From: Rhodococcus sp. SBT000017
Lineage (GTDB): Bacteria > Actinomycetota > Actinomycetes > Mycobacteriales > Mycobacteriaceae
NCBI RefSeq assembly: GCF_003688915.1
Contig: NZ_REFU01000001.1
Location: forward strand, 2,728,001 to 2,792,000
Direction: 5' to 3'
Length of the DNA: 64,000 nucleotides
Shown: positions 35,804-48,812 of the stretch, in pieces
Position numbering within the stretch: the first letter of the stretch is position 1
Layout of the letters: each line of letters opens with the position of its first letter
The notes under the pieces: model-generated
What the model saw: the letters and a program-made list of their open reading frames with translations, nothing else
The model's database searches: none
Told to the model about the DNA's origin: nothing
Program-made: the position numbers and the translations under genes

Positions 35804-38800
35804 ATGAACGCCCTGACGATCACGTTGGGCACAGTCGGTGCTCTGCTCAGCCTCGTGTGTTGGTACGTCTTCATTCGCGGGGGCCTGCGGATGTTCAACA
35901 TCGTGCGCATCGGCCAGCCGGCACCCGACCGCTGGCGACCGATAGTCCCTCGCTTCAAGCAGATGATGATCGAGTTCCTTGCCCACACCAAGATGGTCAA
36001 GTTCCGCACGGTCGGCTGGGCGCACTGGCTGGTCATGATCGGCTTCATGCTCGGTGCCATCGTCTGGTTCGAGGCCTACGGTCAGACGTTCAACCCGGAG
36101 TTCCACTGGCCCATCGTCGGTGACACCGCGGCGTACCACCTCATCGACGAGTTGCTCGGCCTCGGCACCGTCATCGGCATCACCACGCTGATCATCATTC
36201 GCCAGCTCAATCACCCGCGGAAGCCCGAGCGTCAGTCTCGCTTCGCCGGCTCCGGGTTCAAAGCGGCCTATTTCGTCGAAGCCGTCGTCCTCATCGAGGG
36301 CTTGGGCATGGTGTTCGTCAAGGCAGGCAAGATCGCAACGTATGGGCATGGGAACCCGTACACGGACTTCTTCACGATCCGCTTGGCCGAACTGCTGCCC
36401 GCCAACTCGAACATGGTCGCAGTCTTCGCGTTCGTCAAGCTGATGTCCGGCATGATCTGGCTCTACATCGTCGGTTCGCGCATCAACTGGGGTATCGCGT
36501 GGCACCGCTTCACCGCGTTCCCCAACATCTACTTCAAGCGCATGGACGACGGCACCGTGGCCCTCGGCCCGGCCAAGCCGATGATGTCCGGCGGCAAGGT
36601 CCTCGAGATGGAAGAGGCCGACCCCGACGTCGACGCGTTCGGTGCAGGCAAGATCGAAGACTTCAGCTGGAAGGGCTGGCTCGACTTCACCACGTGCACC
36701 GAGTGCGGCCGCTGCCAGTCGCAGTGCCCCGCCTGGAACACCGGCAAGCCCCTCTCCCCCAAGCTGCTGATCATGTCGCTGCGCGACCACAGCCACGCCA
36801 AGGCCCCGTACCTGCTGGCCGGCGGCAAGAAGGACATGGCTGGCGACGAGGTCGGACTCGTCGACGCCGAGGGCAACGTCGACCAGAAGGCGCTCGACGC
36901 CATCCCGCAGAACGCTCGCGACGAAGCCGATCGCAAGCTCGTCGCCGACGCCATCGAGGGCGGCATCATCGATCCCGAGGTGCTGTGGAGCTGCACCACC
37001 TGCGGTGCCTGCGTCGAGCAGTGCCCGGTGGACATCGAGCACGTCGACCACATCATCGACATGCGCCGCTACCAGGTGCTGATCGAATCGGAGTTTCCGT
37101 CCGAGCTCGCAGGTTTGTTCAAGAACCTCGAGAACAAGGGCAACCCGTGGGGTCAGAACTCCAAGGACCGGCTCAACTGGATCAACGAGATGGACTTCGA
37201 CATCCCGGTCTTCGGCCAGGACGCCGATTCGTTCCAGGACTACGAGTACCTCTTCTGGGTCGGCTGCGCCGGTGCCTACGAGGACCGCGCGAAGAAGACC
37301 ACCAAGGCCGTCGCCGAGCTGCTCGCCACAGCAGGCGTGAAGTTCATGGTGCTCGGCGCGGACGAGACCTGCACCGGCGACTCCGCTCGCCGCGCAGGCA
37401 ACGAGTTCCTGTTCCAGCAGCTCGCCATGCAGAACATCGAGACGCTGAACAACGTCTTCGAGGGTGTCGAGCAGAACAAGCGCAAGATCGTCGTCACCTG
37501 CGCCCACTGCTTCAACGCACTCGGCAACGAGTACCCGCAGGTCGGCGGTGACTACGAGGTGGTCCACCACACGCAGCTGCTCAACCGCCTCGTGCGGCAG
37601 AAGAAGCTGATCCCGGTGGCCTCGGTCAGCCAGGACATCACCTACCACGACCCGTGCTACCTGGGCCGTCACAACAAGGTGTACGACGCCCCGCGTGAGC
37701 TCATGGCCGCGTCGGGCTCCAACCTCAAGGAGATGCCGCGCCACGGTGAGCGGTCCATGTGCTGTGGTGCCGGTGGCGCACGCATGTGGATGGAAGAGAA
37801 CATCGGCAAGCGCATCAACATCGACCGGGTCGACGAGGCACTGGCGACCAACCCGAAGAAGATCGCCACGGGTTGCCCGTTCTGCCGAGTGATGCTCACC
37901 GACGGTGTCACCGCACGTCAGGAAGGCGGCGCACACGAGGGCGTCGAGGTCGTCGATGTCGCGCAGCTGATGCTCGAGTCGATCACCCGCGTCGAGTCCT
38001 CGGTGCTGGCCGAGAATATCAAGGTCATCCCCCGCGAGCGCACTCCCGAGGAGAAGCTGGCGACCGAGAACGCCGCCGAGGTCGAAGAGGCCGAACGCAT
38101 CGCACCCGTCGAGGAGCCGGCCGAGGCGAAGTCCGCTCCGGCAGCTCCGGCTCCCAAGGCCGGCGGCGGACTGAAGATGAAGGGTCTGGCCAAGGCTCCG
38201 GGAGCCAAGGCACCCGGTTCCGCTGCACCGGCCGACACTGCCGACGCAGAACCCGCCGCCAAGCCCAAGGGTCTCGGCATGGCCGGGGGCAAGGCACCCG
38301 GCGGCAAGGGCCTGCAGATGAAGGGCAAGGCACCCGGCGCGAAAGCGGCTGCACCTGCCGACGCCCCCGCGGCGACCGAAGCACCTGCTACCGCAGAGAC
38401 CTCGGAGTCGACTCCGTCGGTCAAGCCCAAGGGTCTGGCTGTGAAGTCGGGCTTCAAGAAGCCGGGCGCGAAGGCACCGGGTAAGTCTGCCGCCGAAGCG
38501 CCGGTCTCCGAAGCGCCGGAAACCTCGGGTGAGGCTACGGAATCGGCCTCTGCTGCAACCGAATCCAAGCCGACCGTTCAGCCCAAGGGTCTGGCCGTGA
38601 AGTCCGGATTCAAGAAGCCGGGAGCCAAGGCACCGGGTAAGCCTGCCGCCGAAGCGCCGGTCTCCGAAGCACCTGCGGCAGAGGCTCCTACCGCCGAGGC
38701 GCCGGTTGCCGAGGCCACGGCGTCGGAGGCACCCGCTACCGAGGCTGCGGCCGAATCCAAGCCGACCGTCCAGCCCAAGGGTCTGGCCGTGAAGTCCGGA

Positions 38801-39046
38801 TTCAAGAAGCCGGGTGCACGCACGCCCGGTGCGGCAGCAGCGACTCCCGCTGAGCCGAAGACTGCAGAGCCCGAGAAGGCCGAGCCGACTCCGGAAGCCG
38901 CTGCACCCGAGGTACCGAAGGCCGAGGCGTCGGACACTGCCGGTGAGGCCGCATCCAACGGCTCCGATGATCGGACTCCGCCCCAGCCGAAGGCCGGTGG
39001 ACTCGGATTCGCTCCGGGAGCCAAGGTTCCGGGTCGCCGGAAGTAA
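35804..39046 (+). CDS. etfD: EtfD-like membrane iron-sulfur oxidoreductase with repeat tail
   Basis: 1080 residues. About five membrane helices in the first 250 residues (NarI-like); two 4Fe-4S clusters (CTECGRCQSQCP at 298, CTTCGACVEQCP near 399); two heterodisulfide-reductase CCG-type cysteine domains (TCAHCFNALG, HDPCYLGRHN with CCGAGG and GCPFCR). From position 780 on, a low-complexity Lys/Ala/Pro tail contains tandem copies of KPKGLAVKSGFKKPGAKAPG. The M. tuberculosis homologue Rv0338c (EtfD, 882 residues as I recall) re-oxidises EtfBA and so drains electrons from acyl-CoA dehydrogenases into the respiratory chain; the same role is inferred. The tail makes this protein longer. Confidence 0.85.
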   Translation: MNALTITLGTVGALLSLVCWYVFIRGGLRMFNIVRIGQPAPDRWRPIVPRFKQMMIEFLAHTKMVKFRTVGWAHWLVMIGFMLGAIVWFEAYGQTFNPEFHWPIVGDTAAYHLIDELLGLGTVIGITTLIIIRQLNHPRKPERQSRFAGSGFKAAYFVEAVVLIEGLGMVFVKAGKIATYGHGNPYTDFFTIRLAELLPANSNMVAVFAFVKLMSGMIWLYIVGSRINWGIAWHRFTAFPNIYFKRMDDGTVALGPAKPMMSGGKVLEMEEADPDVDAFGAGKIEDFSWKGWLDFTTCTECGRCQSQCPAWNTGKPLSPKLLIMSLRDHSHAKAPYLLAGGKKDMAGDEVGLVDAEGNVDQKALDAIPQNARDEADRKLVADAIEGGIIDPEVLWSCTTCGACVEQCPVDIEHVDHIIDMRRYQVLIESEFPSELAGLFKNLENKGNPWGQNSKDRLNWINEMDFDIPVFGQDADSFQDYEYLFWVGCAGAYEDRAKKTTKAVAELLATAGVKFMVLGADETCTGDSARRAGNEFLFQQLAMQNIETLNNVFEGVEQNKRKIVVTCAHCFNALGNEYPQVGGDYEVVHHTQLLNRLVRQKKLIPVASVSQDITYHDPCYLGRHNKVYDAPRELMAASGSNLKEMPRHGERSMCCGAGGARMWMEENIGKRINIDRVDEALATNPKKIATGCPFCRVMLTDGVTARQEGGAHEGVEVVDVAQLMLESITRVESSVLAENIKVIPRERTPEEKLATENAAEVEEAERIAPVEEPAEAKSAPAAPAPKAGGGLKMKGLAKAPGAKAPGSAAPADTADAEPAAKPKGLGMAGGKAPGGKGLQMKGKAPGAKAAAPADAPAATEAPATAETSESTPSVKPKGLAVKSGFKKPGAKAPGKSAAEAPVSEAPETSGEATESASAATESKPTVQPKGLAVKSGFKKPGAKAPGKPAAEAPVSEAPAAEAPTAEAPVAEATASEAPATEAAAESKPTVQPKGLAVKSGFKKPGARTPGAAAATPAEPKTAEPEKAEPTPEAAAPEVPKAEASDTAGEAASNGSDDRTPPQPKAGGLGFAPGAKVPGRRK

Positions 39047-39124
39047 CCTCACACCCTTTTTACCGACTGCGCGCCCTTGCTCAATTCAGAGCAGGGGCGC
39101 GCAGTCGTCAGTAGGGGTGTGAGG
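39047..39124. repeat. Dispersed hairpin repeat, copy 1 (also etfD terminator)
   Basis: Nested hairpin: outer stem CCTCACACCC/GGGTGTGAGG (39047-39056, 39115-39124), inner stem CGACTGCGCGCCC/GGGCGCGCAGTCG (39064-39076, 39095-39107), tip TGCTC/GAGCA. It starts at the etfD stop. Related copies, sharing GAGCAGGGGCGCGCAGTCGT, are at 40155-40212 and 46380-46441. Confidence 0.85.
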
Positions 39125-39139
39125 TCCCCCGGCCCTCGG

Positions 39140-39218: not shown

Positions 39219-40208
39219 ATGACCCGCATAGTCTCGCGATCCGACGCTCTCTCCCGCGTAATTTCCGACGCAGAGCTGCAGCGCTACTGCCGAACGCGAG
39301 CGTGGCGTCGACTCCGTCCCGGAAGGTTCGTCAGCAGAGACAAATTCGACGCACTGCCCAGGGAAGACAAGCATCGGGTCATCGCCGAGGCCGTGTTCGA
39401 CGCGACCATCGCCCCCGATGCCGTGGTCAGCCATGTGAGCGCAGCAATATTCCACGGTCTCGACGTATGGAATGCCGACCTGAGCCGAGTGCACATCACG
39501 CGCAATCGTGCCCGTGGCGGCGGTCGTAGCAGCGCCGTTCGAGCAGTGCACACCTCGCCGTACACCGACGACGAGGTCGTGGACTTCGACGGCGTGCGAG
39601 TCACAGGCCTGGCGCGCACCGTTGCCGATTGTGCTCGCTCACTTCCGTTCGATACGGCCGTCTGCGTCGCGGACTTCGCTGCGAGAACCCGCGGCCTCAC
39701 CACCGAAGATGTTCTTGCAGCATTGGATTCATGCCCCAACCACCCCGGCAATCGGATGGCGCGTCGAGTCGCAGAATTCATGGACGGCAGATCCGAGAGT
39801 GTCGGGGAATCACGCGCCCGGGTGTTGCTGCATCAGCTGGGTTACAGCCCGCAACTACAGGTGCAGATAGTCGATGAGCGCGGCTTCGTCGGGCGCGTGG
39901 ATTTCGATCTGCCCGACATCGAGACCGTTCTCGAATTCGACGGCAAGGTGAAGTACGGACGCTACGTGCCCGAGGGGAAGTCTGCGGCCGATGTGTTGTG
40001 GGACGAGAAGCGTCGCGAGGATCGCATCCGCGCAACCGGCCGCCAGGTGGTGCGCATCGCCTGGTCGGATCTCGATCACCCCGAGTTCGTCGATCGGAGG
40101 CTCCGCGATGCTGCCGACAGAGCGCGACGCCACCGAGCGACCTCTTTACGGACCGCGCGCCCCCGCTCACGTCAGAGCAGGGGCGCGCAGTCGTCAGAAA
40201 GTGTGTGA
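39219..40208 (+). CDS. DUF559 / AbiEi-like DNA-binding protein
   Basis: 329 residues. N-terminal winged-helix-like part (VISDAELQRYCRTRAWRRLRPGRFVSR) typical of AbiEi-type antitoxin proteins; C-terminal PD-(D/E)XK-like DUF559 domain with VLEFDGKVKYGRY and VLWDEKRREDRIRATG. No toxin partner gene is adjacent. The last 18 residues (RPRSRQSRGAQSSESV part) are encoded by the dispersed hairpin repeat, and the stop lies inside it. Start ATG 39219 was chosen because the conserved region begins there; an earlier in-frame ATG at 39177 exists. Such genes are multicopy and often mobile in Rhodococcus-type genomes. Confidence 0.75.
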   Translation: MTRIVSRSDALSRVISDAELQRYCRTRAWRRLRPGRFVSRDKFDALPREDKHRVIAEAVFDATIAPDAVVSHVSAAIFHGLDVWNADLSRVHITRNRARGGGRSSAVRAVHTSPYTDDEVVDFDGVRVTGLARTVADCARSLPFDTAVCVADFAARTRGLTTEDVLAALDSCPNHPGNRMARRVAEFMDGRSESVGESRARVLLHQLGYSPQLQVQIVDERGFVGRVDFDLPDIETVLEFDGKVKYGRYVPEGKSAADVLWDEKRREDRIRATGRQVVRIAWSDLDHPEFVDRRLRDAADRARRHRATSLRTARPRSRQSRGAQSSESV

Positions 40209-40212
40209 GGTC
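40103..40212 (+). repeat. Left 110-bp direct repeat bounding the sbnAB segment
   Basis: From CCGCGATGCTGCCGACAGAG to GTGTGAGGTCC. It matches 46328-46441 with few differences and a 3-4 bp length change. It includes the 3' coding end of the DUF559 gene plus the dispersed hairpin. The first half is absent from the copy at 39047, so this pair shares a longer ancestry. Confidence 0.85.
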
Positions 40213-40253
40213 CACTTCCGGCTCTGCCCATCTGATTCGCTCGCGTAGCGAGC

Positions 40254-41690
40254 TCACAAAACGATCATCAAAGCAGCACCGATCACCATGATCAGCACGA
40301 CGAGGCCAAGAATTTTGAAGCCGAACCTCAGCATGCGTGTCTCTTCGTCGCGAGTTCCTTTGCCTGCCACTGCGAGAACAAGAAGAGTCTCGGGAACGGA
40401 CGCAAAAATCGAATGCCCAGCGCCACTGTTCTGCAAGGCAACTGCAGCGGAGCCAGCACCGAAGAAATCACCGATATTCTGTTGCGGAATGACCATCAAC
40501 GCATTGGCACCGGTGTTCGATCCCACCAGGTAACCAGAAATCACGGCCAGCAAGGGAACGAACACAACGAAACCGATGTCACCTGCTCGACCAACCAATG
40601 CAGCGAGATCACCAACCGCCCCAGAGTAATTCATGAGTTGAGCAGCCGCGGCGAACCCGAACAAAGCAACCAGCGGTTTCCAACCGCCTTGCGCGGCAAT
40701 CCGGATAGCGCTGACGTTCACATAACGCCAACCGAAACCCACGGACACGATCAGCAACGCGAGACCGGGAGAGAGCAAGGGCTCGAATGAAACTCGCCCA
40801 GCGTGCAGCGCTACCGCGGTTCCCCAACCCGTTGCAGCGTCGGCGACACGCGCAACCAAAATAAGTGCCACGACCACTAGAAACGGAGACAAGGCCCGCC
40901 ACGGTGGTGCCGTGGCGGCCTGACGACGAGCTGCCAGGAGTATGTAACCGAGTACGCCGGTCACCGCCCCTGCTGTGACGCCGGCGAGTGGCACCAACCC
41001 GACGAAGTTCATACCTATGAGCACCAGCGCGAACGTGACGCCCAATCCTGCCGCAACGACGATGGTTCGGGTGCGTTCGGCTCGATCGGAGACCAGCAGC
41101 GCAGTCACGATCGCGAAGGCCGGAAAGATGGCTGCGCTGAACAACGATGATTGAAAACCGATGTCGCGGGCGGTGTTACCCGATAAGTCGGCAGCCACCG
41201 TGGTTGCCAAACCAGCGGTGCCCCAGGGCATGATCGTCAAACTGAGCATTGAGGCCAGCAAGGCCTTCGCTCGGGGTAGCAGTTGCAACAGGACCGGCAC
41301 GGTGACAAGGAGCGAGACGCCGAAGCCTGTGATCGATTCGAGTGCCGGTGCAAATCCGACGGTGAGAATGACGGTCGCGGTGGCAGGACTGACGGGCCAG
41401 CGCTCGATCCACCCGACGATTGTCGCGTGCGTGCCGTTGCGACGCAGCACTTCGTTGAGCAGCAGTCCTGGGAAGATGATGAGTCCTGCATCGGCGGTCA
41501 ACAGGATTCCTGCTTCGAGCGCAGGTGGGGATGCCTCCACGAGTGCGGCAGTACCGAGTACGACGGCAAACATTGCGGCGGCAGCAAGGACCGAAGCCAG
41601 CGCGACCTGCCACGCGGCACGTCGGACGATCAGTACGCCGACCACGACGATGACGGCCGGGACAAGGACGATCATCAGTTCGAGGGTCAT
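40254..41690 (-). CDS. Lactate-permease-family transporter (LctP-like)
   Basis: 478 residues, about 12 hydrophobic segments. Family motifs of L-lactate/glycolate permeases: FAPALESITGFGVSLLVT (conserved GFGV loop), IMPWGTAGLATTVAADL, and near the end SGYLVGSNTGANALMVIPQQNIGDFF, where lactate permeases have GGFLTGSNTASN. Shorter than classical LctP (about 550). Its start overlaps the stop of the FAD gene (ATGA) as the fourth gene of sbnA-sbnB-FAD-transporter. Possible substrates are a small carboxylate or the product of the cluster; direction of transport is not evident. Confidence 0.8.
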   Translation of the reverse strand: MTLELMIVLVPAVIVVVGVLIVRRAAWQVALASVLAAAAMFAVVLGTAALVEASPPALEAGILLTADAGLIIFPGLLLNEVLRRNGTHATIVGWIERWPVSPATATVILTVGFAPALESITGFGVSLLVTVPVLLQLLPRAKALLASMLSLTIMPWGTAGLATTVAADLSGNTARDIGFQSSLFSAAIFPAFAIVTALLVSDRAERTRTIVVAAGLGVTFALVLIGMNFVGLVPLAGVTAGAVTGVLGYILLAARRQAATAPPWRALSPFLVVVALILVARVADAATGWGTAVALHAGRVSFEPLLSPGLALLIVSVGFGWRYVNVSAIRIAAQGGWKPLVALFGFAAAAQLMNYSGAVGDLAALVGRAGDIGFVVFVPLLAVISGYLVGSNTGANALMVIPQQNIGDFFGAGSAAVALQNSGAGHSIFASVPETLLVLAVAGKGTRDEETRMLRFGFKILGLVVLIMVIGAALMIVL

Positions 41691-43267
41691 AGTTCGACCG
41701 CAACTCTGGGCTGCACGCTGCCCACCAACTCCATGAGGATCACGTCGAGTTCTCGGTGGGCTCGAGACGGAACTGCCGGCGAGGGAATGTAGTGGTTGTA
41801 GTACGAATACCCCTCGGCAGGTGGCCCGACAACGCATATCGACTGGGGTCCAGCGCTGGTGTGCAATCGGGCTCCTTCGATACGTCCTGCAGGTAAAAGC
41901 GAAGGCGCAGCGGCAGAGGTCTCTCTGGCATCCAGGATTTCGTCGACGGTGACGACCGAGGGGACGGTCAATTGTCGTGACACGACCTGGAACCCATCGC
42001 CTACTGGTGTGAGTATGGGATCGGGGCCCGGTCCCAGTTGCAATATTCCTGACTGGTGAAGTGCGATCAACTCCGCGATGCGTTCTTTCTGCGGTCCGAT
42101 GACCAGGCGGTTGATCAGGTTGGGGGTAGCGGCGAAGAATGCTGCCTTCACCATCGGGTGCGCGTCGTCCACGGCTTGGCGAATATGTTCGCGATTGGTT
42201 CGCAGAGCTTCCAGAGTGGCTTTGTAGTTGCTCTTGGGAATACCTGCTGAAGCCTCGGTCAAGTCCCATCTGGCGTCGGCAAAGACGGTTCTCGAATACG
42301 TTTCGTGATCGACCCACATCTTGTCGTCTGAAAGCTTGTTGTGTAGGCGCTGCTGTTCGCGGTCGTTCAATCGCGGCGATAGTTCATCGATGAGCATTCT
42401 CTGGGCGCTATTTCGCGGATCCGTCGACGCGGTGAAGTACTTGCAAAGGAGAGAATCGACATTGTCTGCGAACAGATCGCTCGCATGGGCTCGACCATAT
42501 GGATCAGTCTCGGGTCTGGCTGCGGGCAGTTGGCCAGATCGGCTGGTGAGGGTGAGGAAGGGCTCCTCGCCGCTGGGATGGTAGGTGAAGATTCCAGCGG
42601 TGTCACGAGTGAAACGGCCGCCGCGCCCGACAGTGAGGTGCGCGACAAGATCCATGGAAGTCAGACCCATGCCCCTGAGCAAAAGTCGTCGGCGCGGAGG
42701 CACGCGGTCCAGCTCGAGCTGACGGGCGGACCGATCTGTTCCATGACCGGTGGCGATGATGACCAAGTCGTAACGCAGCTCGGTCGAATCTGTCGCCGTT
42801 CTGACAGTTGCGCCTGTAGACAGCGCGCGCACGGCGGTTGCTTCGTTGCGGTGCACCTTCACCGTGAGACGGTCGGTGTCGGTCGTGAATCGGGCCGCTG
42901 CTTCGGCGAGATACTTGCCGATCAGGCCACGAGGCAGAAAGTCCGTGCGTTCCGGCCGTCGCTCATCGCCATACTCGACCACCGTCTGGCCGTTGTCTCG
43001 AACCCATTCGTAAAACGTGGGACCCGGCGTGGTCGGGGCTCCCGGGATAACCATCTCGGCGTCGGTGTACACCGTCAGTTGGGACGCAATGGTGTTCAGT
43101 CGGATGAACTCGGGGAGGTCGGGATTGTGCACCCCCCAACCGTCCGATCGACTCGAGTCGAAGACGTCGATCGTGGCTGCAAAGTCTGTCTCGGACAAAT
43201 GCGCTCCGACACGTTCGAGGGCGACCAGTCCGCGAGGTCCGAAGCCGACTATGGCAACTCGAATCAT
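41687..43267 (-). CDS. FAD/NAD(P)-binding oxidoreductase
   Basis: 526 residues. N-terminal dinucleotide-binding motif VAIVGFGPRGLVALERV (GxGxxG), then DGWGVHNPDLPEFIRLNTIASQ and a second nucleotide motif region LVIIATGHGTD. This arrangement is seen in the NAD_binding_9-type flavoproteins, distant relatives of N-hydroxylating monooxygenases. Start ATG 43267 has GGAG six bases upstream; an ATG at 43279 is also in frame. It begins 14 bp after the sbnB stop. In this operon it might oxidise or hydroxylate the diaminopropionate product; that is inference. Reaction unknown. Confidence 0.75.
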   Translation of the reverse strand: MIRVAIVGFGPRGLVALERVGAHLSETDFAATIDVFDSSRSDGWGVHNPDLPEFIRLNTIASQLTVYTDAEMVIPGAPTTPGPTFYEWVRDNGQTVVEYGDERRPERTDFLPRGLIGKYLAEAAARFTTDTDRLTVKVHRNEATAVRALSTGATVRTATDSTELRYDLVIIATGHGTDRSARQLELDRVPPRRRLLLRGMGLTSMDLVAHLTVGRGGRFTRDTAGIFTYHPSGEEPFLTLTSRSGQLPAARPETDPYGRAHASDLFADNVDSLLCKYFTASTDPRNSAQRMLIDELSPRLNDREQQRLHNKLSDDKMWVDHETYSRTVFADARWDLTEASAGIPKSNYKATLEALRTNREHIRQAVDDAHPMVKAAFFAATPNLINRLVIGPQKERIAELIALHQSGILQLGPGPDPILTPVGDGFQVVSRQLTVPSVVTVDEILDARETSAAAPSLLPAGRIEGARLHTSAGPQSICVVGPPAEGYSYYNHYIPSPAVPSRAHRELDVILMELVGSVQPRVAVEL

Positions 43268-43280
43268 CGATCGCTCCATC

Positions 43281-44234
43281 CTAGAAGAACTCCACAATGG
43301 CGGGGTGTGCGGTGTTATCCAAGACATGGACAGCGGCCGCAATGTCAAGAATTCCGAGACCGAACGGCGACACTATGACCGGTCGATCGTCCAGGGACAC
43401 TTCACCGGCGAGCAGTTCGGGAATTGTTCCGTTGATGAAGTCCAGGTGCCCTACTTCGCTACTTGCGAGCTGGAGAGAAGTGCCCTCGCGCACAGCATGT
43501 TCCGCGTCGTCCACGATGTTCTGTGCGTCTAGGAGAACGGAAGGTTCCAGATCACGGAGTGAGACGTGCAGGACTACTTGACCATCTCGAAAAGGACGCG
43601 ACACGAACGGAGCCTGAGCGGTTGTTGCGAACACGACCAGATCCGAGTCCAGCGCTTGCTCGAGACCAAGTGTCTGAGTGACTCCTATCGAATGAGTCAG
43701 CTCAGCGGCGCGAACGGGGTCGTTGTCATGGACTGCGACGGGGGCGCTCAGGCCGAGGTGGTGAAGGTAGTCGAGGATGCTGACCCCGATATAGCCCGCG
43801 CCGATCAGTCCGATGGACCCAGGCCCGTTCCCGCGGTTTCGATAGATGGAATCCGCCGCCAACGCAGCGGATGCTGCCGTGCGGGCAGCGTTGATCGGCG
43901 AGGCCGCGATAAACGCAACGGGATAACCGGTCTGCATATCGTTGAGCACTATCGATGCGAAGGCTCTGGGACGTCCCGATTCCAGATTCGCAGGGAAGCT
44001 GGAAACCCATTTCACGCCCGCATAGTCTCGACCGGTCGAATTCGTAAACCGCGAAAGCAACGCAATAATACGGTCCGCTGGACGGTCCGCGAAACGAAGA
44101 AAGTGCGAGCGTGGGGTCTGCTCAGGGTTGACGCGGTGCGCCTTGTACGCGGCCGCAACAAGTTCCAGAACGGAATTTTTGTTTTGCAGCGCATGGGATG
44201 TTTGACTCTGATTGACGATAGAAACCGCGTTCAC
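43281..44234 (-). CDS. sbnB: SbnB-like N-(2-amino-2-carboxyethyl)-L-glutamate dehydrogenase
   Basis: 317 residues, ornithine-cyclodeaminase/mu-crystallin family, SbnB branch. N-terminal SHFLRFADRPADRIIALLSRF and KWVSSFPANLESGRPRAFASI are characteristic of SbnB rather than ornithine cyclodeaminase; Rossmann motif IGLIGAGYIGVSILDYL. SbnB oxidatively splits the glutamate adduct made by SbnA to L-2,3-diaminopropionate and 2-oxoglutarate with NAD. The GTG start overlaps the sbnA stop (GTGA), so the two are coupled. DNA here is visibly richer in A/T than the flanks. Confidence 0.88.
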   Translation of the reverse strand: MNAVSIVNQSQTSHALQNKNSVLELVAAAYKAHRVNPEQTPRSHFLRFADRPADRIIALLSRFTNSTGRDYAGVKWVSSFPANLESGRPRAFASIVLNDMQTGYPVAFIAASPINAARTAASAALAADSIYRNRGNGPGSIGLIGAGYIGVSILDYLHHLGLSAPVAVHDNDPVRAAELTHSIGVTQTLGLEQALDSDLVVFATTAQAPFVSRPFRDGQVVLHVSLRDLEPSVLLDAQNIVDDAEHAVREGTSLQLASSEVGHLDFINGTIPELLAGEVSLDDRPVIVSPFGLGILDIAAAVHVLDNTAHPAIVEFF

Positions 44235-45217
44235 GGCTGGAGCTCATTTCTTGTTGGTGTTGCCGATACAGAGGGTACAACTGCGCCAAATGTTGTCGCG
44301 ACCCAGCAATCGTCGAAAATTGTGTTCAAATATCGTTGACCAGAATCCGGTGAGATACCGACCACGACATCGTGTTTTTTGAAACCTGAATCGTATCGGC
44401 GAATGGCTGCCATGACGCTTCCAGTGCTACCGCCCGCCAGCAGACCGTGCTCCCTCGCGAGGCGGCGGCATTCGACAACCGCGGCCAGTTCGTCCACGAG
44501 TTCGATATTGTCGACATCGAGGCCCTGTACGTGACCTGGACGCCTGCTGGTACCAAGCCCTGGGATGTATCGCGGAGCAGGATCGTCCCCGAAAGTCACA
44601 GATCCGACAGTATCGACGGCGACCACCGTGGTAGCCGTTCCCAGACGGCTCAAATAGTCGACTACACCGCGGATGGTGCCCCCTGTGCCGACTCCGATAA
44701 ACAGATAGTCGATGTGGTGAAATGCTGCGGCAAGCTCCGGACCAGTTAACGCCATGTGTGCAATCGGGTTACTTGGATTCTGATATTGGTTCAGCCAGAT
44801 CGCGGTTGAGTCGGTAGCTATGATCTGATCGATAGCAGCCAAACGCGTACCGAGATACCCCCCGTTTTCATCGCGATCACACACCCGGTGGATCTCTGCG
44901 CCGTAGGCTTGCATCTCTGCAATCGCAGCCACATTGCTATTGGGATCGACTACACACCGAAACTTGTAATTTCGAGCGGCACAAATCATTGCCAAAGCAA
45001 TGCCGAGGTTCCCGGACGACGATTCGATAATCAACCTTCCCGAAAGGTCTCCGTGTTTCTTCTCGGCGTCGCTGATCAGATATCGAGCGGCCTTCATTTT
45101 TACTGATCCAGCAGTGTTCAAGTGCTCGACTTTGAGGTACAACTCATCCGTGTATACGACTCCTGGTAGCTGAAGATATGGATCGAATGTGGTCAGTTCT
45201 TCCGGCCGGACGGCCAA
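44231..45217 (-). CDS. sbnA: SbnA-like N-(2-amino-2-carboxyethyl)-L-glutamate synthase
   Basis: 328 residues, cysteine-synthase-fold PLP enzyme. PLP lysine in NTAGSVKMKAARYL, phosphate-type loop ESSSGNLGIALA, and GVGTGGTIRGV. The SVKMK sequence in place of the SVKDR of cysteine synthases is typical of SbnA-type enzymes, which join O-phosphoserine and glutamate. Start is a TTG: 45217 is eight bases after GGGGAGG, while the alternative TTG 45223 is only two bases from it, so 45217 is preferred. First gene of the operon, divergent from lysR. Confidence 0.88.
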   Translation of the reverse strand: MAVRPEELTTFDPYLQLPGVVYTDELYLKVEHLNTAGSVKMKAARYLISDAEKKHGDLSGRLIIESSSGNLGIALAMICAARNYKFRCVVDPNSNVAAIAEMQAYGAEIHRVCDRDENGGYLGTRLAAIDQIIATDSTAIWLNQYQNPSNPIAHMALTGPELAAAFHHIDYLFIGVGTGGTIRGVVDYLSRLGTATTVVAVDTVGSVTFGDDPAPRYIPGLGTSRRPGHVQGLDVDNIELVDELAAVVECRRLAREHGLLAGGSTGSVMAAIRRYDSGFKKHDVVVGISPDSGQRYLNTIFDDCWVATTFGAVVPSVSATPTRNELQP

Positions 45218-45303
45218 GGTCAATCCCTCCCCGGTTTCGCTGCTGAGTGCAATGGCTCACTCATGTCATATCCGCACTACGCGCATCGAGCAGGAACGAA
45301 ACT

Positions 45304-45321
45304 AGCTCAGCTGGCAGAGCT
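45304..45321. promoter_or_regulatory. Candidate LysR operator
   Basis: AGCTC-N8-GAGCT dyad in the 144-bp gap between sbnA and lysR, about 40 bp before the lysR start. It contains a T-N10-A core, close to the LysR-type T-N11-A pattern. Confidence 0.4.
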
Positions 45322-45361
45322 GGAGGTAATGCCGAATCAGCGCGCACTATGCTTCTGAAAC

Positions 45362-46243
45362 ATGGGACTGGAACTTCGTCACCTGCAGGCGCTCATCGCA
45401 GTGTCCGAGGAGGGCAGCATTTCTCGTGCTGCGCGCCGTTTGCATGTTGGACAGCCGGCTCTCTCTCGCTCCATTGCGCAGCTCGAACGCGAAATCGGAG
45501 CTCGACTGTTCGACAGAACGTCTGCCGGCGCGACGCTGACGACAACCGGTGAGGCCTACCTCGTCAGGGCCTCGCGGGCGATCTCGGCGTTCGATCTGGC
45601 CGTGCAACCTCCCGAGTCGGTGGGCACAGTCATAGTCGGCTACGTGTGGTCGGCCTTGGGATCTCTGACCAACACAGTGTTCGAGACGTGGAATGCCACC
45701 AAACCACAGGAGCAGTTGATGCTCAAGAGGTTCGCGAGCCGCACCTCCGGTGTCGAATCGGGAGAGGCCGACCTGGGGATAGTTCGGCAGGGAATCGCCT
45801 CGGTCAGCTTTTCCAGCTCGTTGTTCGGTGAAGCAAGGGTCGTCGCACTGTCCCAGCGGCATCGGTTGGCGGACCGTCCGGAGCTCGCACTCTCCGACCT
45901 TTCGGACGACATCATCGTGCTCGATATCATGTCGGGCACAACCACAATGGACCTATGGCCTGCCCATACCCGTCCCTTCAGTCGACCGATCGAATGTGGA
46001 TCGGTGGACGAATGGAACCATCATGTGTCGCTGGGCCACGGAATCGGAATCACAGCCGAGTCGACGCCACACATGCACCCTTATCCAGGGATCGTCTACG
46101 TACCCATGAAAGCGACGACGCCGCGCATCGAAGTCTTCTGCATCTGGGACAGTCCCCACTTGACCCCGGTCGCTACCGAATTCTGCGCAATGGTTCGGAC
46201 GGTTCACAAACATCAGCTCACCTCGAAATCCGAACCTTCCTAG
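45362..46243 (+). CDS. LysR-family transcriptional regulator
   Basis: 293 residues. N-terminal helix-turn-helix LRHLQALIAVSEEGSISRAARRLHVGQPALSRSIAQLE is a textbook LysR signature (quoted as two adjacent blocks), followed by a ligand-binding domain of normal size. Divergent from sbnA with a 144-bp shared promoter, so it probably activates or represses the sbnA operon in response to a related metabolite. The gene ends 84 bp before the right direct repeat. Confidence 0.88.
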   Translation: MGLELRHLQALIAVSEEGSISRAARRLHVGQPALSRSIAQLEREIGARLFDRTSAGATLTTTGEAYLVRASRAISAFDLAVQPPESVGTVIVGYVWSALGSLTNTVFETWNATKPQEQLMLKRFASRTSGVESGEADLGIVRQGIASVSFSSSLFGEARVVALSQRHRLADRPELALSDLSDDIIVLDIMSGTTTMDLWPAHTRPFSRPIECGSVDEWNHHVSLGHGIGITAESTPHMHPYPGIVYVPMKATTPRIEVFCIWDSPHLTPVATEFCAMVRTVHKHQLTSKSEPS

Positions 46244-46327
46244 GCCTGCGCGTCAGCGACATGTCCGAAGCGGATGGATAAGGAATCGACTTCGTCTGAC
46301 CTCGAGCAGCACAACCAGCTCAGACGA

Positions 46328-46441
46328 CCGCGATGCTGCCGACAGAGCGGGACGTGGCAACCGAGCGACCCTTCTACCGACCGCGCGCCCCCGCTCACGT
46401 CAGAGCAGGGGCGCGCAGTCGTCAACAGGGGTGTGAGGTCC
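46328..46441 (+). repeat. Right 110-bp direct repeat; remnant of a DUF559 3' end
   Basis: Matches 40103-40212. In the equivalent frame it still encodes a DUF559-like C-terminus (RDAADRAGRGNRATLLPTAR, then RSRQSRGAQSSTGV and a TGA), with no gene body before it. It also contains dispersed hairpin copy 3. The rest of the 46244-46535 gap shows nothing else. Confidence 0.85.
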
Positions 46442-46535: not shown

Positions 46536-46805
46536 ATGACCGACGACGCGGACAGGCTCTTTCGCCGCTACGACGAGTGGTGGACGGCTCTGTCACCGGA
46601 CGATCGAGCGCACGTCGAGCAGTGTTGCGAATCCGGCCGCACCGACGAGCGCCTCTGTGCACTCATCCGCGAACACGACGGCCCATCGAAGGCAGCGTTC
46701 GAGGCGGGCAGCAAATTGTCCGAGGGCAACAGCAAGTACTGCGCTATCCCCAGCGCGCTCCTCGAATTCCTGGAAGCGAAGCGCGCGCACCCGCCACTCA
46801 GCTAG
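46536..46805 (+). CDS. Small hypothetical protein
   Basis: 89 residues, no signal peptide or membrane segment, helical and charged: DDADRLFRRYDEWWTALSPD at the start, LREHDGPS-like middle and a basic C-terminus. Contains three cysteines. ATG preceded by GGGAG nine bases upstream. Not recognised. It converges with and overlaps the S9 peptidase gene by 8 bp. Confidence 0.6.
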   Translation: MTDDADRLFRRYDEWWTALSPDDRAHVEQCCESGRTDERLCALIREHDGPSKAAFEAGSKLSEGNSKYCAIPSALLEFLEAKRAHPPLS

Positions 46806-48711
46806 AGGGACGCCACAGCTCCAGCTGTGGAATTCCGGGCGGCGTGAAGCCCATGACCTGGCCGTAGAAGGACAGTTCGGATTCTCGCGCGTTCACCTGT
46901 GTTTCCAGTTTGCGGAATCCGTGCGACTCCCCCGCATAAGCCAGGTAGGCGTGCGGAATTCCCTTCTTCACCATGGCATCTCGGAACCGTACGGCCTGTG
47001 ACGGCGGCACGATCGGATCGTCGAGCCCCTGCAACAACAGCACCGGGCAGGACAGTCCGTCGACGTTGTTGACCGGCGCACGGGTGCGGTACAGGTCGAT
47101 GGCCTCGGGCAACGGTCCGATGAGCCCGTCGATGTAGCGGGACTCGAAGTCGTGGGTCTCGGCGACGAATAGCTCCAGCTCGGCAACACCGAAGTACGAT
47201 GCGCCGCAAGCGAACACGTCGGAGGATGTCAGCGCGGCCAACACCGTCCAACCGCCTGCGGATCCGCCTTCGATGGCCAACCGGCGTGGGTCGGCGAGTC
47301 CGCTGTCGGCCAACCCCTGCACCGCGGCGATGGTGTCCTCGACGTCGACCACTCCCCACTGCCCGCGCAGTCGGTTGCGGTATTCGCGGCCGTATCCACT
47401 CGACCCGCCGTAGTTCACATCTACGACGCCGATGCCGCGGCTGGTGAAATAGGCGAACAACGGGTTCAGAGCGGGGGCGACGTGCGCGGTCGGGCCGCCG
47501 TGAACGAACGCGACGTACGGTGGCAGTTCGCCGTCCAACCCCTCGTACGACGGGTTGCGCGGCGCATAGGTGATGGCGTGCACCTCACGGTTCGGCCCCT
47601 GGAATGTCACCTGACGACCCTCGGGCAGGTATGCGCTGTCGGGTACGGATTCGAAACCCGAACGTACCGAGGTCAGTTCGCCGGATTCCAGGTCGAGGGC
47701 GAACAAACCGGCGGCCACCCGAGCTCCGCCGCACTTGAGGAGCACGGTCGACCCGGAGCGCCCACCGAGCCCCACCGAGGTCACACCGTCGAGCGCGATG
47801 TCCTCGAGTGCCCCGGATGCCGAATCGAGTACCGCGAGGGTGTCGGTGCCGACGGCGCGCACGGTGAGCAGCTTCCCGTCGTCGAGCACGGAGTACCAGC
47901 TCGATCCCAATCGCCACAGCGGAGCCCCGAAGTCGGCGTCGAGCGCCCGAAGCGGTGTGACCGATCCGTCGAGCGTGACCGAATACAGGTTCCACCAACC
48001 ACTTCGGTCGCTGATGGCGTACAGCGATTGGTTGTCGATCCATTCCGGCTGCATCACCGATTCCTCGGTCGAGCCAAGGAGCACGGTCCATGCGCCGGGA
48101 TCAGCGAGGGAGGCAACGCGTAGTTCGGTTCCGTCCCAGGGCATCTGGGGGTGGTTCCACGCAATCCATGCGATGCGGGTGCCGTCGGGTGAAAGTTTCG
48201 GGAACGCAAGGAAGTCCGAGCCCGCCACCAGCGAACGCACCCCGCTGCCGCCGAGATCGATCGCCACGATGTCTCGTGACACCGCACCTGCGTCGTGCAT
48301 CTCGCGAACTGCGATCACGTCGGTGCCGACCACCGAGAGATCGGCGTACCGGATGCTCGACGCCACAGCCGGTTTCGGAGTCAGCGGCACGGGTGCGCCG
48401 CCGGGGGTGAGTCGGTAGACGCGTTGATCGGAGAATTCGGCGAACACCAGGTCGCCGGCCGCCGTCGCGGTCCAGGCTCCCCCGCCGTATTCGTGGACGC
48501 GGGATCGGGCGTTGAACGGCGCGGGCAGAACAGGCTGCACTTCTCCGTCGACATAGCGGCAGATGGCCGTCCGGCCCTGTTCGGCGGGCCGTAGTTCCGA
48601 CCACCAGATCTCGCTGCCGACGAAGCACCCACCCTCGACGGGGTGGCCCGCCGACGACAGATCTGCTGCGGTGATGGGCGAGGGCCAGGATCCGAAGGCG
48701 AGAGCAGTCAC
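46798..48711 (-). CDS. Prolyl-oligopeptidase-family (S9) serine peptidase
   Basis: 637 residues. N-terminal beta-propeller-like region (HEYGGGAWTAT, then WDGTELRVASL) and a C-terminal alpha/beta-hydrolase: Ser in EGGSAGGWT, Asp in LQGLDDPIVPP, His in AGESHGF. The oxyanion-type motif GGSSGYGREYRNRL typical of dipeptidyl/acylaminoacyl peptidases is present. Cytoplasmic. The GTG at 48711 was chosen as start because it opens with the propeller; an in-frame ATG at 48792 is possible. Confidence 0.85.
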   Translation of the reverse strand: MTALAFGSWPSPITAADLSSAGHPVEGGCFVGSEIWWSELRPAEQGRTAICRYVDGEVQPVLPAPFNARSRVHEYGGGAWTATAAGDLVFAEFSDQRVYRLTPGGAPVPLTPKPAVASSIRYADLSVVGTDVIAVREMHDAGAVSRDIVAIDLGGSGVRSLVAGSDFLAFPKLSPDGTRIAWIAWNHPQMPWDGTELRVASLADPGAWTVLLGSTEESVMQPEWIDNQSLYAISDRSGWWNLYSVTLDGSVTPLRALDADFGAPLWRLGSSWYSVLDDGKLLTVRAVGTDTLAVLDSASGALEDIALDGVTSVGLGGRSGSTVLLKCGGARVAAGLFALDLESGELTSVRSGFESVPDSAYLPEGRQVTFQGPNREVHAITYAPRNPSYEGLDGELPPYVAFVHGGPTAHVAPALNPLFAYFTSRGIGVVDVNYGGSSGYGREYRNRLRGQWGVVDVEDTIAAVQGLADSGLADPRRLAIEGGSAGGWTVLAALTSSDVFACGASYFGVAELELFVAETHDFESRYIDGLIGPLPEAIDLYRTRAPVNNVDGLSCPVLLLQGLDDPIVPPSQAVRFRDAMVKKGIPHAYLAYAGESHGFRKLETQVNARESELSFYGQVMGFTPPGIPQLELWRPSS

Positions 48712-48812
48712 GCCGTCCACCCTAGTGAACTGACGTGCACGTAACGCGTTGTTCACCGGCCCTTCAACCGTGACCCGGATGATAGGAGTCAAGTAGCACT
48801 AGGGGGAACACC

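Follow-up and report, generated by a model that had tools for sequence, protein, structure and literature searches.

A lower-GC segment between gene-end repeats

The stretch analyzed here (the window) comprises 64,000 nucleotides of the Rhodococcus sp. SBT000017 genome (contig NZ_REFU01000001.1, positions 2,728,001 to 2,792,000). It contains a five-gene segment flanked on both sides by a direct repeat that includes the 3′-end of a DUF559-like gene. Four genes lie on the minus strand: an SbnA-type L-2,3-diaminopropionate (L-Dap) synthase (44231–45223), an SbnB-like dehydrogenase (43281–44234), a flavin adenine dinucleotide (FAD)/NAD(P) enzyme of the NAD_binding_9 family (41687–43267), which is a predicted L-Dap N-oxygenase, and an LctP-like permease (40254–41690). 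A LysR-type regulator (45362–46243, plus strand) is divergent from them. This gene list, drawn up in an earlier note on the DNA, was borne out by Pfam and NCBIfam searches. A Pfam scan likewise found no integrase or transposase among the five segment genes, shorter open reading frames (ORFs) lying outside the scan.

The left repeat (111 bases, 40103–40213, plus strand) and the right repeat (114 bases, 46328–46441, plus strand) align with 103 identities over 110 columns and 5 gap bases (89% identity by BLAST), in agreement with the match of about 110 bp that the earlier note had reported between 40103–40212 and 46328–46441. Without gaps, 26 of 27 bases are the same in the first block (40103–40129 vs 46328–46354), and 76 of 85 in the second (40129–40213 vs 46357–46441); in 100 shuffles the repeat core pattern was expected 0 times. 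The left copy is indeed the 3′-end of the DUF559-like gene (39219–40208, plus strand), whose stop codon (40206–40208) lies inside it. Only 26 bases of this copy are upstream coding end, however; the other 85 of 111 are a repeated intergenic hairpin (HP), and the last codons and stop of the gene are read from within it. We refer to this copy as HP-M (40129–40213) and to the one that follows the DUF559 tail in the right repeat as HP-R (46357–46441). A third copy, HP-L (39043–39127, plus strand), lies upstream of the DUF559-like gene and has the strongest fold of the three (plus-strand z-scores of –12.6 for HP-L, –3.4 for HP-M and –4.9 for HP-R). Thus, the gene-end repeat noticed earlier is real, but most of it is a genus-wide hairpin with a further copy close by.

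The name of the gene also needs a qualification. Pfam and NCBIfam gave no match to it at 0.001 (searched as 39222–40208), and the genome's six PF04480 matches do not include it; it does match a paralogue (C1:2188604–2189272, E = 5e-13) that overlaps one genome PF04480 match. Since the link to PF04480 runs only via the paralogue, ‘DUF559-like’ is a safer name than the original ‘DUF559’. Another relative in the same genome (loci L015 and L019; C1 1282175–1283075) occupies two frames, is interrupted by an internal stop and is likely a pseudogene.

The composition of the segment differs from that of its surroundings, as had been remarked by eye. Its GC content of 0.587, against 0.661 in the rest of the window, is the lowest of all 6.1-kb windows tried at a step of 200; non-overlapping 6.1-kb windows range from 0.638 to 0.698 (n = 229). 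GC content at third codon positions is 0.56–0.70 in the five segment genes and 0.71–0.85 in seven flanking genes.

Empty sites and a genus-wide hairpin

Orthologous loci were located through hairpin or DUF559 matches and fetched by place, which gave 13 loci (L050–L061 and L063), one per genome, out of 37 genomes available for the genus. Segment genes were found in none of them (tblastn, 1e-8). Nine (L050, L051, L053–L059) have an empty site in which an iron-sulfur (FeS) reductase-type gene, a hairpin, a full-length DUF559-like gene, a gene for an 89-aa protein (p89) and an S9 peptidase gene follow one another. A hairpin is also present at the end of the DUF559-like gene in these nine, as a short match only in L057 and in part in L059. 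In the window the corresponding flanks are the FeS reductase-type gene (35804–39046, plus strand; named from its ORF and upstream in all 13 loci), whose stop overlaps HP-L, and, on the right, p89 (46536–46805, plus strand) and the S9 peptidase (46798–48792, minus strand; also recognized by Pfam). The right repeat passes into the spacer native to the empty site.

The remaining loci are reduced. L060 and L063 (genomes G003 and G011) have a single hairpin and no DUF559-like gene; in L052 only the DUF559 end is kept; in L061, a rearranged locus read in part, DUF559 is truncated and p89 has no match. In Rhodococcoides kyotonense KB10 (L085), the FeS gene, hairpin, DUF559 and S9 peptidase follow in that order, so that the absence of DUF559 from L060 and L063 is more simply read as a loss. 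In L052 (7079–7367, genome G022) most of the DUF559 body is gone, with a break inside the left hairpin. A separate feature of the FeS gene in the window is a set of long in-frame direct repeats in its 3′ part (38405–38865), of the KPKGLAVKSGFKKPGAKAPGK type.

Relatives of the segment genes are scarce in the family. Of the 401 family genomes searched, a single one has the FAD gene (E 1e-60) and three have sbnA (E 1e-70), the other two sbnA copies being 45% and 41% identical. Beyond near-identical proteins (98–99% identical in P0001 and P0081), the nearest relatives are in Nocardia sp. NPDC051570 (FAD protein 53%, SbnB 70%, LctP 71% identical); each of these three matches sits on a contig that is 473,607 bases long, and this shared contig size suggests one operon there. 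The next LctP match is in Nocardia halotolerans (65%). The earlier reading, a segment acquired at the DUF559 end, would have been in difficulty had all relatives carried the segment at this place; the 13 segment-free loci and the near-absence of its genes from family genomes support it instead. We consider it very probable that the segment is an insertion acquired at the DUF559-like 3′-end at this site.

A model of the hairpin (R1), built from 30 copies including the three of the window, matches 31 of 37 genus genomes (E 1e-4) and at least 8 sites in the own genome; BLAST with the DUF559-end hairpin as a query matched 20 of 37. The best relatives that bear a name belong to Rhodococcus and Rhodococcoides, which suggests the same placement for the window. 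Four further own-genome sites lie between script-called ORFs, three of them no more than 25 bases from the stop of an ORF (one of these ORFs is doubtful). No Rfam family matched the hairpin at E 0.1, and nothing on it was found in the open-access literature. Being short, intergenic, hairpin-forming and present at several genomic sites, it resembles repetitive extragenic palindromic (REP) sequences, but it is longer (85 bases) and has few copies. REP elements are associated with a RAYT transposase.

Other genes are flanked by such hairpins as well. A second hairpin-flanked module, consisting of a lipoprotein gene and a gene for a 133-aa protein, lies upstream of an LtrA-like gene (L064 4613–5803; L065 5530–6741; L066 5563–6784; L067 4745–5962; in the own genome, C2 near 777734, L251). 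Among 29 LtrA-bearing genomes, 13 carry the lipoprotein module no more than 1.5 kb upstream of LtrA, and in 12 of the 13 a hairpin separates the two. In G011 a single hairpin is present without the module, and 15 genomes have neither. Hairpin-flanked modules are thus missing, with one hairpin in place, in the case of DUF559 (G003 and G011) and of the lipoprotein module (G011). These patterns indicate that the hairpins may act as recombination joints in the genus. If so, they would provide a simple rule for where Rhodococcus gains and loses accessory gene cassettes. A DUF559-hairpin pair moving as one mobile element was also considered and rejected, as other hairpin pairs flank other genes.

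The hairpins of the window themselves look mixed. We compared each half with 12 FeS-end copies (HP-L and 11 from relatives) and with 8 DUF559-end copies, all taken from relatives other than L052 and L059. In the right half (43 positions), HP-M and HP-R score 37.1 and 38.2 with the FeS-end class, and 29.9 and 30.8 with the DUF559-end class, while in the left half (42 positions) the scores with the FeS-end and DUF559-end classes are 30.6 vs 32.1 for HP-M and 31.8 vs 35.5 for HP-R. The right-half preference is reversed in L050, L051 and L055–L057 (25.0–28.0 FeS-end vs 32.4–35.7 DUF559-end), and more weakly in L058 (30.2 vs 33.6). Such scores suggest exchange between the DUF559-end hairpins of the window and HP-L. 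Weighing against it, the half scores carry no significance test, the left-half scores differ little between the classes (as for HP-M), and the right half does not separate the classes in L053 (33.7 vs 31.1) and L054 (31.8 vs 31.7). These two loci make a kept ancestral hairpin sequence a possible alternative.

Routes of insertion

The most likely course of events would be that a complete foreign transcription unit, sbnA-sbnB-FAD-lctP with the divergent lysR, inserted at the hairpin of the DUF559-like 3′-end, so that both sides of the segment now bear the gene end and the hairpin. The step itself was most likely homologous recombination with DNA bearing the same gene-end and hairpin sequence. 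We hold this route tentatively, at a little under even odds, because the searches turned up no donor bearing a DUF559 end. Recombination between DUF559 copies had been proposed earlier; recombination would stand as the likely route, but its joint should be the hairpin together with the gene end.

Direct repeats that duplicate the 3′-end of a gene are typical of integrative elements, and the repeats at this locus do exactly that, with clear edges at 40213 and around 46328. The segment could accordingly be what is left of an integrative element whose integrase used the DUF559 3′-end and hairpin, the repeats being attL and attR, and whose integrase gene was later lost. We regard this as rather unlikely: the five segment genes include no integrase, the repeats are only about 89–94% alike, and no other island lies between DUF559 and p89 in the 13 fetched loci (L061 being rearranged and partly read).

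The anatomy of the locus, in which a target is duplicated around a strong palindrome, would also fit capture at a break. Here a double-strand break at the hairpin, with nicks offset by about 111 bp, would have been repaired by end joining that took up a foreign fragment, and fill-in would have duplicated the target; Ku/LigD end joining occurs in this bacterial group. Such an event leaves no distinguishing trace in the sequence, the divergence of the repeats would require age, and the mixed hairpin is present in both repeats, all of which makes this scenario improbable.

Finally, the right repeat might be the remnant of a tandem DUF559 copy, formed by unequal crossing-over between the two hairpins that enclose the gene and then largely replaced by the operon. 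Weak DUF559 likeness left of 46328 does exceed base shuffles (score reached by 0 of 300 and 0 of 1000 for L057; 1 of 1000 for the score summed over ten sequences, the window and nine relatives), but 243 of 1728 60-mers across the window reach the same score (one of them in DUF559 itself), nhmmer finds 0 matches, and no DUF559 upstream spacer follows 40213, so we give little credit to this scenario. The tandem remnant that the earlier note had named as a danger to its reading is clear for 27 bases; a longer one, doubtful further left, is not established. Preferring homologous recombination at the gene end and hairpin, we turn to the genes that it would have brought in.

The flavoenzyme and its predicted substrate

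SbnA scores 360.5 bits, above the TIGR03945 cut-off of 349.95, and its best matches in PDB are the SbnA entries 5d84–5d87. It retains the Lys of the AGSVK stretch, a residue with a pyridoxal phosphate role; the place equated with Ser185 of Staphylococcus aureus SbnA is Gly here, varies among relatives and is not decisive. TIGR03944 is the best family of SbnB. The permease is recognized by PF02652 (44.5 bits, cut-off 27), with TIGR00795 at 31.6 bits, far below 341.15. SbnA and SbnB most likely make L-Dap, as in staphyloferrin B synthesis and in the CmnB/CmnK type; unlike a staphyloferrin B-type cluster, the five segment genes include no siderophore synthetase or non-ribosomal peptide synthetase (NRPS).

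The FAD protein has a sole match in PDB at E 0.01, 8cp2/8cp5 (E = 3.6e-21), deposited as the L-aspartate N-hydroxylase of Streptomyces sp. V2, of the CreE/FzmM/AlnM type (PMC10404684). The 8cp2 motif R409-x-x-R412-N413-x-x-R416 faces R356-x-x-R359-E360-x-x-R363 (residues counted by hand on the alignment), and the arginines equivalent to R13, R409, R412 and R416 are retained as R12, R356, R359 and R363. In contrast, the aspartate-contacting Asn413 is Glu360. According to the same paper, N413E abolishes aspartate hydroxylation while NADPH oxidation is retained. The place of another aspartate contact, Arg577, also seems to be replaced; this is judged from relatives with Asn at the 413 place (Asn-type), as the 8cp2 alignment stops short of Arg577. 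Where Asn-type relatives have HWVTAAGIRP, the FAD protein has a SYYNHY-type stretch.

We surveyed this residue in 84 rows, made up of 80 hits ordered by their similarity to the FAD protein, the window's own protein and three from plasmids. Asp occupies the place in 37 rows, Glu in 31 and Asn in 6, and the other 10 have a different residue or a gap. Gene contexts were compared for 35 (30 fetched loci, four plasmid loci and the window). Both sbnA and sbnB are present in seven, the window included, of which six have Asp or Glu at the 413 place. None of the nine Asn-type contexts has both genes (L194, L196 and L198 have a weak sbnA-like match of 32–35%), and neither do ten contexts with other residues. 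The order sbnA-sbnB-FAD is adjacent in the window, the Deefgea plasmid, L188 and L074 (the S. nigrescens plasmid and genome G948 being among these four). The Deefgea piscis plasmid NZ_CP054144.1 carries a one-direction sbnA-sbnB-FAD-thrH-lctP cluster, which differs from the segment in its extra thrH and DinB genes and in its position between IS66 and IS30 genes.

On this sequence evidence, the enzyme appears to represent a branch of its own in the aspartate N-hydroxylase family. A Glu at the Asn413 place would suit an ammonium group, which makes L-Dap a candidate substrate, at even odds in our view. In the predicted L-Dap N-oxygenase operon, the flavoenzyme would oxidize one L-Dap amino group, and the LctP-like permease would move the small product across the membrane, perhaps outward. 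Several points weigh against this picture. SbnB reaches 284.4 bits, below the TIGR03944 cut-off of 326.9; the Deefgea FAD protein is only 27% identical; and the seventh sbnAB context, L215, has Gly (it is distant, with the sbn genes about 5 kb away). In addition, nine acidic contexts (L208 badly aligned) lack sbnA and sbnB together. Given these contexts and L215, an acidic residue alone does not mean L-Dap. Acidic-type relatives without both genes in the fetched stretch are L191, L192, L199, L200, L201, L207, L075 and L077.

Alternatively, the enzyme could be an ordinary aspartate N-hydroxylase that supplies nitrosuccinate or nitrite, with L-Dap as a separate end product. Membership in the same family as 8cp2 would be explained directly, yet the Glu at the Asn413 equivalent, the lack of a lyase among the five segment genes, and the acidic residue in six of seven sbnAB-linked genes, set against nine of nine Asn-type contexts without both sbn genes, render this unlikely. 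For the L-alanosine pathway of Streptomyces alanosinicus, PMC7347517 and PMC11705231 describe L-Dap as a building block and propose its N-hydroxylation. There, however, the acyl-CoA-dehydrogenase-like AlnG is proposed to act on carrier-bound Dap, while the segment has a flavoenzyme of another family and no carrier among its five genes. Nothing was found in the open-access literature on an L-Dap N-oxygenase of the NAD_binding_9/aspartate N-hydroxylase family.

Taken as a whole, insertion at a hairpin site of an operon that would oxidize L-Dap is our best explanation of the locus, with a probability of about 0.5. If true, the change from Asn to Glu/Asp at the entry chamber of the aspartate enzyme would divide a family of nitro-forming flavoenzymes into two substrate classes, and a compact route leading to an N-oxygenated diamino acid is predicted. 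A broader version is doubtful: the acidic branch would hold a widespread mobile L-Dap N-oxygenase in three- or four-gene operons, sometimes with the permease, making free N-hydroxy, nitroso or nitro L-Dap without carrier or NRPS, and the Rhodococcus cassettes would be exchanged through hairpin joints.

As to how widely the family is distributed, a phylum search with the single FAD protein at 1e-25 gave 1 of 396 and a genome-contig scan gave 25 pattern stretches, none confirmed, but a profile of the enzyme family at 1e-60 found a member in 29 of the 260 genomes searched from one other bacterial family; the single-protein search therefore understates the family. For LctP, plasmids gave no match at 1e-20, though blastp shows 31% identity with the protein of the Deefgea plasmid. 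Two acidic-type FAD genes have sbnAB about 3 kb away. One is in L205 (6914–13926), whose neighbors were scanned for one gene only. The other, in L204 (2734–13534), has NRPS-type neighbors (adenylation, carrier, thioesterase and condensation) and is possibly a carrier-bound Dap version.

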